DNA from: a virus
Virus record (IMG/VR): IMGVR_UViG_3300025132_000336
Span: 1 to 22,570 of that record
Reading direction: 5' to 3' (one strand)
Length of the DNA: 22,570 nucleotides
A model generated the notes under the pieces. The model was given only the letters and a program-made list of their open reading frames with translations. It made no database searches and was not told where the DNA came from. Made by a program: the position numbers and the translations under genes. Positions 5,918 to 8,088 of the stretch are shown here, in pieces; position 1 is the first letter of the stretch; the number at the start of each line of letters is the position of its first letter.

Positions 5918-6088
5918 ATGTTTGATATAGAGTATAAACTAGGTTGGAGATACATAGTATGGGTAGGCGGTGTAGACGACTATTATAAAAACTATAAAGA
6001 TGCAAAAGAGGCAGCTCAAGAGTGGACTGATGCAGGTTACGACTTTGTGGAGATTCAAGAACTATCAGAATTAAGAGGGAGTCAATAA
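5918..6088 (+). CDS. small protein of cassette 3 (56 aa)
   Basis: Start set at ATG 5918 because the in-frame ATG at 5906 is part of the ribosome site CAATGGAGAA shared with cassette 1. The protein begins MFDIEYKLGWRYIVWVGGVDDYYKNYKDAKEAAQEW: one beta-hairpin plus helix, with the WVGGxDDYYxxYKxA pattern common to tiny phage and plasmid proteins of unknown function. Its stop overlaps the start of the next gene (TAATG), so it is made together with the cyclotransferase-like enzyme; whether it assists that enzyme is unknown. Confidence 0.65.
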   Translation: MFDIEYKLGWRYIVWVGGVDDYYKNYKDAKEAAQEWTDAGYDFVEIQELSELRGSQ

Positions 6089-6552
6089 TGTTGTATTTAG
6101 CATACGGTGCAAACCTAAACAAAAGAAACATGGCAGTAAGGTGTCCACTTGCGACACCTCTATGCAGTATTAATCTAAAGGGTTACAAGTTAGCCTTCAA
6201 CAATGTAGCGACTATCGTCAAATCAGCAGATGATTCCGTGCCTATTGGGGTGTGGAGAATTACCGACAAGTGTGAGAAAGCACTAGATAAGTATGAGGGT
6301 TTTCCTAATCTATACCGAAAAGAATACTTCGACTTAACTAAGATAGGATTGAATCAGGGTATGGTATACATAATGAACTATGCAGGTCAGGCAGTACCGA
6401 ACAAAATTTACTTCGACACCATAAAGCAGGGGTATCAGGACTTCCAGCTTAATACCGAACAATTAGTAAATGCTGTACTGGAAGCATATGATTACGAAAA
6501 AGATACTGGTCGAGTCATTCAAACGAGGCGTGGTGGGAGCAGATGGAGGTAA
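6088..6552 (+). CDS. gamma-glutamylcyclotransferase-like (AIG2-like) protein
   Basis: The start MLYLAYGANLNKRNMAVRCPLATPL holds the substrate-loop signature of the GGCT fold (YGxNLN...M..RCP.A; Y6, G7). KALDKYEGFPNLYRKEYF carries the acidic catalytic residue at about E70 followed by the Y.R.Y pattern. Family members release 5-oxoproline from gamma-glutamyl amides or peptides. At 154 residues it has the usual length. Known context: GGCT-like genes next to amidoligases in phages and bacteria, described in the amidoligase survey of Iyer and co-workers, where they are proposed to cut or recycle the amide links that the ligase makes. The C-terminus (QTRRGGSRWR) looks unstructured and basic. Two half-sites lie in the gene (6397, 6455). 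Confidence 0.85.
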   Translation: MLYLAYGANLNKRNMAVRCPLATPLCSINLKGYKLAFNNVATIVKSADDSVPIGVWRITDKCEKALDKYEGFPNLYRKEYFDLTKIGLNQGMVYIMNYAGQAVPNKIYFDTIKQGYQDFQLNTEQLVNAVLEAYDYEKDTGRVIQTRRGGSRWR

Positions 6553-6570
6553 TTGTTCGCTTCGCCCAGC

Positions 6571-6600
6571 AAAAAAGCCCAGATCCTTCTGGGTTTTTTT
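6571..6600 (+). terminator. rho-independent terminator T3
   Basis: Arms CCCAGA / TCTGGG around loop TCCT, with a run of A on the left and seven T on the right. It ends cassette 3 and lies 13 bases before palindrome copy 6. Confidence 0.88.
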
Positions 6601-6613
6601 ACAGGTAAATACC

Positions 6614-6625
6614 GAACAATTGTTT
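6614..6625. repeat. palindrome GAACAATTGTTT, copy 6 (one mismatch)
   Basis: Eleven of twelve bases match; the last base of the right arm is T in place of C. Context TACAGGTAAATACC on the left resembles copy 3 in the mirrored CCTGTAGATACC. Confidence 0.85.
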
Positions 6626-6823
6626 GCTAATCGGGAGGGCGCTGATCGGGAAGCACTCTGATCGGGAAACTTTTTGACGGCATTTTAGAGAATCCCGATT
6701 CTGAGATCCCCATTCCTAATAGAAATTTTTTTTGATTTTTTTAAAAAATAAAAAAGTCAATAAAAACAAAGACTTATAATTAATTAAATTAGTTATATAC
6801 TATATATACAAAAAATAAATATT

Positions 6824-6834
6824 GTAATCATTAC
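6824..6834. promoter_or_regulatory. GTAATCATTAC dyad in the amidoligase leader
   Basis: The only perfect palindrome among the operator-like elements (GTAAT-C-ATTAC). It lies 51 bases ahead of the amidoligase start. The promoter around it is not clear: -10-like sequences lie upstream at 6796-6808, so the dyad may overlap the transcription start rather than the spacer. Confidence 0.6.
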
Positions 6835-6885
6835 TAGAACTGTTATTTTAATTAGACATTTTAATTTAATTGGAGAAACAAACAA

Positions 6886-8088
6886 ATGACTATTTTAAAC
6901 AATACCAACAGACCTTATTTTTTAACTTTTGGCTTAGAACCTGAATTTGTTAGACCGCATTATTCAGGTGTAGATATTCATAATCATGTTGATGGAGTAT
7001 TTGCAAAATCAGATGGCAGTTTAAGAGATGGAGGAGAATTAGAACTTCCGATTTATGCTGATAGCAATAGAGCATGGGAACATATAGAAAAAGTTTTTAA
7101 TGTAGCAACAAACCAATATAATTGCGTATCAAATTCAATAAAATGTTCTGTTCATGTTCATATAGGAATGAGACCAATTAACAGAACAATTGTAAATGAA
7201 GAAGATTTTACAAATGAAAGTATATCTTACAGTCATAATAATAATGATGTCAGATATAGATCAGCTAAAAAAATTAAAAGATATTTTGGTGAGCCTTTAC
7301 CATTGGAAATTGCTAGAGATATAAGTTATAGAATTGTCAAAGATATAGCTTTATTTTCTACAATGTTGACACCAAAAAGAAGAGACTGTTATTTTGCTGA
7401 ATATCCAAATAACACCGCCCAAGCTATTCAAAACACTAGAGCAGATATAAATAGCTTAATAAGAGCCATTAGCACAGGAAGAAGCGGTGGTAAATATTCA
7501 GCTATTAATTTGTTATCACTTGCACCAAATAACTATAATAACAATGTAAAATATACTATGGAATTTCGCTCACATAGTGGATCTATGGAAATGGAAAAGC
7601 TAAGAAATTGGATAAGATTTTTATTAAACTTAGCTTATCATTCAATAGACACTAGATTTGAGCAAGCACAGAGCTTGCTACAGACACCAAACATTATTGC
7701 AAGGCAAGGAACAAAGGCACAAATTGTTTGGGAGCTTGCAAGATCAGAAAATGGAGCATCAACTCAAGAACTTATGAATGCTAGTAATATCCAATCAGCA
7801 CAGAGAATTAGAGTTATGTTTTCAGAATGGAGAAATCAACTAGCAAATACCTTTGGTCAGAATGTTATTGAGACATTAACGCAACAACATTATGGACACC
7901 GTTATTCTACTAGTAACGGACAACATGATTTAAACGGCTACAGAATACCAAAAGAAATACAAGGTAATGGCAACGGTTATGTATTTAATGGAGCTGGAGA
8001 CCCATCTATTCTTGCAGGAATGACACAAGATTTATTGAATGCAACGAATGCAAGAATAGCACAAATAGCTACTCTTAGATCGAGATAA
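6886..8088 (+). CDS. amidoligase (COOH-NH2 ligase) fused to winged-helix-like domain
   Basis: A 400-residue enzyme. Residues 15-21 (FGLEPEF) give the Glu-x-Glu metal/ATP motif, LRDGGELELP the next acidic strand, VHVHIG at 89-94 the paired His of the central sheet, and TMEFRSHSGSMEMEKLRNWIRF (E226, R228, W242) the arm that closes the active site. These are the marks of the amidoligase family, related to glutamine synthetase and glutamate-cysteine ligase, which joins a carboxylate to an amine with ATP. Residues 272-345 (GTKAQIVWELARSENGASTQELMNASN...) follow the DUF3489-like winged-helix layout, so the enzyme may bind DNA or a partner protein. Own leader with the dyad and own terminator (T4). 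Ribosome site GGAG at about 6871. Confidence 0.8.
   Translation: MTILNNTNRPYFLTFGLEPEFVRPHYSGVDIHNHVDGVFAKSDGSLRDGGELELPIYADSNRAWEHIEKVFNVATNQYNCVSNSIKCSVHVHIGMRPINRTIVNEEDFTNESISYSHNNNDVRYRSAKKIKRYFGEPLPLEIARDISYRIVKDIALFSTMLTPKRRDCYFAEYPNNTAQAIQNTRADINSLIRAISTGRSGGKYSAINLLSLAPNNYNNNVKYTMEFRSHSGSMEMEKLRNWIRFLLNLAYHSIDTRFEQAQSLLQTPNIIARQGTKAQIVWELARSENGASTQELMNASNIQSAQRIRVMFSEWRNQLANTFGQNVIETLTQQHYGHRYSTSNGQHDLNGYRIPKEIQGNGNGYVFNGAGDPSILAGMTQDLLNATNARIAQIATLRSR

Follow-up and report, generated by a model that had tools for sequence, protein, structure and literature searches.

Can a phage enzyme that would join a carboxylate to an amine also read the DNA ahead of its own gene? We ask this of a 22,570-nucleotide stretch of marine phage DNA (positions 1-22,570 of IMG/VR virus record IMGVR_UViG_3300025132_000336, hereafter the window), in which an amidoligase and a gamma-glutamyl cyclotransferase-fold protein (GGCT) are encoded near one another. 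The ligase carries an inserted domain resembling a winged helix, and the 14-bp palindrome CGAACAATTGTTCG recurs upstream of the ligase gene and of neighboring units. The explanation that we favor, if with slightly less than even confidence, is an amide-making and amide-breaking module whose ligase binds its own CGAACAATTGTTCG operators.

The amidoligase and its cyclotransferase-fold partner

The open reading frame (ORF) at 6886-8088 had been called an amidoligase in a prior sequence-only reading of this DNA, from its Glu-x-Glu, HVH, and EFR motifs. Its product scored above the cut-off of the Pfam Amidoligase_2 profile (PF12224; 28.5 bits, cut-off 22) and matched phrog_7469 at 3.5e-7. In an alignment of 36 relatives, reaching down to 14% identity and all matched by PF12224 at E-values up to 0.1, the only invariant columns were E18, E20, P55, H90, H92, T224, E226, and R228. 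Every residue named in that reading is thus invariant, forming the motifs ExE (E18/E20), HxH (H90/H92), and ExR (E226/R228). In glutamine synthetase (GS), the equivalent residues bind metal, ATP, and substrate. The AlphaFold (AF2) model of the ligase had a mean predicted local distance difference test score (pLDDT) of 88, and its best matches in a structure search were glutamine synthetases (5dm3, Z 13.3, root-mean-square deviation 3.2, 213 aligned residues), with the alignment extending across the whole model; the YbdK-type ligase 1tt4 also matched (Z 11.8). The predicted GS fold, taken with the invariant motif residues, supports the active site proposed earlier. The gene is under purifying selection (ratio of nonsynonymous to synonymous substitution rates, dN/dS, 0.10-0.18). 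Weak, below-cut-off matches to SEA, DuoxA, and similar Pfam families were set aside, and no relative of the ligase was confirmed in the bacterial genomes searched.

The GGCT exceeded the cut-off of the Pfam GGACT profile (PF06094; 29.5 bits, cut-off 22.8) and matched phrog_2520 at 7e-27, and a profile built on it detected human gamma-glutamyl cyclotransferase (2pn7) at 3e-12, with E70 aligned to the EG motif of the human enzyme. Residues Y6, G7, N9, L10, and E70 are invariant in the GGCT alignment, so that the catalytic glutamate is kept and the call of a GGCT-like enzyme stands; this gene, too, is under purifying selection (dN/dS 0.08-0.13). The guanine-plus-cytosine (GC) content of the ligase gene is 32.6%, compared with 40.9% for GGCT and a window average of 37.6%, and the lower value may reflect separate origins of the two genes.

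Judging from these families, the ligase would activate a carboxylate with ATP and join it to an amine, the carboxylate being most likely that at the gamma position of glutamate; the GGCT could remove a gamma-glutamyl group as 5-oxoproline. We infer that the substrate is glutamyl and that both enzymes act on the same link, in which case they would make and break one amide bond, the group so attached being either a reversible tag or one that temporarily protects or activates.

The two enzymes occur together well beyond the window. Loci were collected separately by ligase and by GGCT, and near-identical contigs were merged into groups; the ligase was present in 40 of 50 GGCT-selected groups and the GGCT in 20 of 28 ligase-selected groups, and in all 72 groups holding both enzymes the genes lay on one strand. 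Long records had both in every case (17/17), these having been picked from loci where the pair had mostly been seen beforehand. Insert-bearing ligases are mostly encoded downstream of GGCT, and insert-less ligases upstream, often abutting or overlapping it; the association therefore exists in two opposite arrangements. In one sub-lineage the GGCT gene lies upstream of a homologue of ORF-599 and the ligase is in its unchanged place (a comparison in which L023 and L038 overlap by 2,703 bp at 99.1%). Loci L021-L025 and L089-L090 carry a GGCT copy ∼61-63% identical, which in L021-L025 sits upstream of the ORF-599 homologue, next to an unknown 370-aa protein. The four nearest complete phages examined (HTVC023P, HTVC027P, DSL-LC04, and 023Pt_psg01) have neither ligase nor GGCT. 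We consider the pairing strong, and the co-occurrence in relatives anticipated by the sequence-only reading is borne out. Its placement of the two genes in neighboring cassettes also holds, with terminator-like stems between the units, and all three genes that it named are found at the positions given.

A winged-helix insert and a palindrome upstream of the ligase gene

The GS fold of the ligase is interrupted, ahead of its last helix, by an insert of about 100 residues (Table 1). DUF3489 (PF11994) was matched in 11 of the 36 ligase relatives (best 4.8e-9), in the stretch that separates the GS core from the last helix, and the insert of relative L126 reached 36.6 bits (cut-off 29.5). Modeled alone, the window insert had a pLDDT of 77, and its structure matched mainly winged-helix folds, among them the winged helix of BirA (Z 5.8). 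The region was detected only inside amidoligases: no free-standing version was found, all four cases lacking a catalytic domain being cut by contig ends, and tblastn gave no match to it among 50,697 records of isolated phages. The distribution of the insert on the tree is consistent with one origin, on a branch with modest support (75). Sequence and model together point to a likely DNA-binding domain built into the ligase.

Allowing up to three mismatches, CGAACAATTGTTCG occurs 16 times in the window, where about one occurrence would be expected, with copies upstream of ORFs 4844 and 5540, of the unit formed by a small ORF and GGCT, and of the ligase. Of 80 distinct winged-helix loci, 75 have a site with at most two mismatches in the 400 bp preceding the ligase gene, compared with 0.1% of shuffled upstream regions and none of 18 loci without the insert (Fisher p 1.6e-15). 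The sites avoid coding sequence (143 of 382 fall inside ORFs, which cover 73% of the sequence; p ∼1e-48). Across whole records, 18 with insert-clade ligases have 1-15 sites each. No site occurs in the four kin phages, in ten records that lack the insert, or in the record G009, whose ligase is of unclear type.

A search that started from paired palindromes alone, with no protein information, recovered viral loci most of which carry the winged-helix ligase. Long records of 62.6, 53.3, 34.3, and 74.3 kb have a palindrome pair and no ligase, and therefore the pair alone is not diagnostic. The same search in bacterial genomes returned 13 stretches, and the ligase, insert, GGCT, and Xre gene (see below) were absent from all of them. 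Eight of these 13 stretches with paired GAACAATTGTTC come from one Bacteroidales metagenome-assembled genome (L406, L407, L412-L417), where they may belong to a separate, unrelated family of repeats. A 74,272-base record (L250, L266, L268) holds several paired GAACAATTGTTC repeats, no 14-bp CGAACAATTGTTCG site, and no amidoligase; its repeats are probably unrelated and share the same core.

These distributions bear on whether ligase, GGCT, and palindromes could be unrelated passengers held together by common descent and gene order. The winged-helix ligase, the small ORF o8403 downstream of it, the Xre gene, and the terminase do form one conserved block, and ligase and GGCT distances correlate (r 0.71), a value that kinship alone would also give. 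Passengers would sit poorly with the opposite gene orders, the relocated GGCT, the absence of both enzymes from the nearest complete phages, and dN/dS well below 1, and just as poorly with a 14-bp intergenic site kept at 1-2 mismatches while the ligases drop to 25-30% identity and GC content ranges from 0.36 to 0.52. We regard this already disfavored account as highly improbable.

Candidate readers of the palindromes

The insert is a natural candidate binder because it co-occurs with the site, and because the gene that the site marks is that of the ligase. In the mechanism we propose, the winged helix would bind the CGAACAATTGTTCG palindromes ahead of the ligase gene and of the neighboring accessory units, and the ligase would thereby control its own module, in the manner of BirA (a ligase doubling as its own repressor) but with a ligase fold unrelated to that of BirA. 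That the ligase is in this sense also its own transcription factor, its inserted winged helix reading palindromes before itself and before exchangeable accessory genes and coupling the state of the amide reaction to expression of the module, we put forward tentatively, with confidence clearly below even. Expression of the module is probably controlled through the palindromes, and possibly by the ligase itself.

The main rival binder is the Xre/RstR-like helix-turn-helix (HTH) regulator encoded at 8629-9015. Xre-type regulators commonly bind palindromes, and if the sites were the operators of this classic phage repressor, the insert would dock a protein or peptide substrate and the enzymes would still make and break an amide. 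Another candidate role for the insert is that of a RiPP recognition element (RRE), a PqqD-like winged helix that binds a precursor peptide. The Xre-type gene is present in 31 of 32 winged-helix ligase loci, and o8403 in 32 of 32 with 2.5 kb of downstream sequence; both travel with the ligase almost everywhere, and the site could therefore belong to the Xre protein. Loci selected by the HTH gene likewise have ligase, insert, and site in 63 of 65 cases. The only HTH-selected locus without the ligase is also without the site and decides nothing, so that a search starting from the Xre gene did not separate it from the ligase. The placement of the sites is what speaks for the ligase: within 350 bp upstream, a site precedes the ligase in 94 of 101 cases, o8403 in 19 of 76, GGCT in 17 of 86, and the Xre gene itself in 0 of 68. 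A repressor that regulates itself should have such a site at its own promoter. Given how seldom a site stands ahead of the o8403-Xre unit, we favor the ligase as the binder and treat the Xre operator account as a serious possibility, if a doubtful one.

The near-constant company of the Xre gene weighs against a module whose ligase reads its own operators, as do several other observations. The pairing of the enzymes is not absolute, with several 13-28 kb fragments holding one without the other, and two loci found later (L220 and L238) encode ligase and GGCT on opposite strands. The window insert itself scored 14.3 bits against DUF3489, below the cut-off of 29.5, and its structure matches were modest (best Z 7.1); the fold call therefore rests on sequence and structure together. 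In the raw count, four of 22 loci scored as insert-less had a site; these were excluded after the result had been seen, three (L010, L017, and L221) being cut by a contig end and the fourth (L113) having a divergent insert and a ligase that clusters with the insert clade. Two records with the insert (G052 and G054) have no site, the DNA upstream of their ligases being missing or nearly so. Finally, all counts are inflated by shared descent, the winged-helix ligases being drawn from a single broad group of phages.

A likely DNA-binding fold within the ligase, together with a DNA methyltransferase gene nearby (Table 1), might also suggest that the ligase is recruited to DNA by its winged helix and there attaches the amide to a modified base or to a host protein bound to DNA. 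We consider this very unlikely, as the sites are discrete and lie before one gene, a pattern that fits regulation better than genome-wide modification, and no further base-modification gene was recognized.

Gene neighborhood and comparison with known systems

The terminase, portal, and capsid proteins of the window are nearest to those of a group with pelagiphages HTVC023P and HTVC027P and phages DSL-LC04 and 023Pt_psg01 (∼56-60% identity for terminase and ∼68-71% for capsid). Features of the locus and its better palindromes are collected in Table 1.

Table 1. Coordinates of genes, the inserted domain, and palindromic sites in the window.
Feature	Position	Strand	Description	Basis
Palindrome	1196..1209	+	1 mismatch; before ORF 1203	
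DNA methyltransferase gene	2111-3370		Near the enzyme genes	Pfam scan
Palindrome	4635..4648	+	1 mismatch; pairs with 4696	
Palindrome	4696..4709	+	1 mismatch; upstream of ORF 4844	
Accessory ORF	4844..5209	+	Palindrome-preceded unit	phrog_9974
Palindrome	5352..5365	+	1 mismatch; pairs with 5400	
Palindrome	5400..5413	+	Perfect; upstream of ORF 5540	
Accessory ORF	5540..5725	+	Palindrome-preceded unit	phrog_9962
Palindrome CGAACAATTGTTCG	5778..5791	+	Perfect; upstream of small ORF-GGCT unit	
Small ORF	5918..6088	+	56 residues, before GGCT; conserved, exchangeable	
GGCT	6088..6552	+	Gamma-glutamyl cyclotransferase-fold protein, 154 aa; AYGxNL motif and E70	PF06094, phrog_2520, human GGCT alignment
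Palindrome CGAACAATTGTTTG	6613..6626	+	1 mismatch; 273 bp upstream of ligase start; candidate ligase operator	
Amidoligase	6886..8088	+	GS-like carboxylate-amine ligase, 400 aa	PF12224, invariant residues, AF2 model
Winged-helix (DUF3489-like) domain	7684..7980	+	In ligase, ∼residues 267-365, before last helix of GS fold	
o8403	8403..8639	+	Small conserved ORF, 78 aa, downstream of ligase	
Xre/RstR-like HTH regulator	8629..9015	+	Rival palindrome binder	
Palindrome	19359..19372	+	Perfect; inside ORF 19224-20183	
Palindrome	22177..22190	+	Perfect; directly after capsid gene	

The small ORF before GGCT had been read as starting at 5918, as co-translated with GGCT, and as a possible part or substrate of the system, and the first two points fared better than the third. 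Mechanical ORF calling placed the start at 5906; 5918 is the better start because GGAG lies immediately upstream of it and relative L008 matches the longer form from residue 3 only. The small ORF passes directly into the GGCT gene, which makes co-translation plausible. Its sequence is conserved without a leader/core pattern, and family searches with it gave no match. In relatives it is replaced by a different small gene (o5540, directly before GGCT in L002), missing (L010), or displaced to ∼780 bp from GGCT (L016). Because it is swapped out or moved in this way, we conclude that it is probably not part of the enzyme system, and we see no grounds for treating it as the substrate.

Upstream of the enzyme genes, two 61-nt stretches (5449-5509 and 5827-5887) are 85% alike, carry TTGACA- and TATATA-like hexamers, and lie upstream of ORFs 5540 and 5906; they resemble duplicated promoter regions serving cassette genes, and a related stretch occurs at 4784-4804. 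A short tandem array at 4507-4602 comprises five overlapping copies of a 12-nt unit around ATCGGGCTTATT, and ATCGGGA motifs recur also at 6636-6667. Beyond the Xre gene and before the terminase, a large ORF (9048-11561) has ends that are conserved among close relatives and a highly divergent middle. PADLOC gave no match to a defense system for the locus.

The founding paper on amidoligases is reportedly Iyer 2009. To our knowledge, amidoligase/GGCT modules are common in phages, and we know of none with a proven substrate. The window ligase shares with Amidoligase_2 proteins the PF12224 match, the GS fold, and the ExE, HxH, and ExR motifs, and differs from them by the winged-helix (DUF3489-like) insert before the last helix; its partner has the YGxxL motif and catalytic glutamate of the GGCT/AIG2-like cyclotransferases (PF06094; human GGCT, 2pn7) and is ∼35-40% identical to annotated gut-phage GGCTs.

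Modules of phage amidoligase and GGCT have already been proposed (PMC5498523, PMC11318856), which supports in kind the pairing proposals invoked by the sequence-only reading. The same two families occur in one phage in RIO-1/PSA-HP1, LUZ24-like phages, Clostridium prophages, and Heliusvirales, and in Heliusvirales the ligase, GGCT, a small ORF, and the terminase stand in a row. In the gut Heliusvirales phages L028 (PV036413.1) and L029 (PV036417.1), a methyltransferase, amidoligase, GGCT, small ORF, and terminase follow one another, an order similar to that of the window. Compared with these modules, the window has the reversed order, with GGCT first, and the winged-helix insert and palindromic sites.

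The likeness raises the possibility of a reduced form of the podovirus cassette for peptidoglycan modification (phiEco32, RIO-1 type), in which an amide on cell-wall peptides would block superinfection. The two families are the same, and PMC5498523 places amidoligase and GGCT in such a cassette, shared by several phages. The glutamine amidotransferase GATase_6 was found in none of the 17 long records, which may be fragments, and in 14 of 14 control genomes, and a second ligase, COOH-NH2_lig (PF14395), is absent from the window and its long relatives, though the profile matched in Pseudomonas phage Ps1.PMD. The set is therefore smaller than the RIO-1/phiEco32 cassette of PMC5498523 (ATP-grasp partners were not searched for). 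The wall role is itself a published prediction rather than a result. We consider a peptidoglycan function here unlikely.

To the published pairing this lineage adds the insert and its palindromic sites, neither of which figured in the sequence-only reading. A literature search whose coverage excludes most subscription journals turned up no account of the insert together with its sites; the one paper covered that combines amidoligase, winged helix, and DNA-binding is an M. tuberculosis review, and a survey of HTVC023P-type phages (PMC9599517) contains none of the terms looked for. The module is cut to two recognizable enzymes and equipped with a clear handle: the ligase contains a likely DNA-binding domain, and a defined 14-bp site precedes its gene.

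A parallel is BirA, the bifunctional biotin ligase and repressor, which likewise has a ligase and a winged helix in one chain and palindromic sites ahead of a gene belonging to the pathway in which it acts. The window ligase differs in that its catalytic fold is that of GS rather than of biotin ligase, its winged helix is an insert near the C-terminus, and its operator binding is a proposal. Because the catalytic domain has the GS fold, the window ligase is not a BirA-type member and is at most an analogue. Should the ligase bind the site as proposed, the BirA principle would have a second, unrelated example, this one viral.

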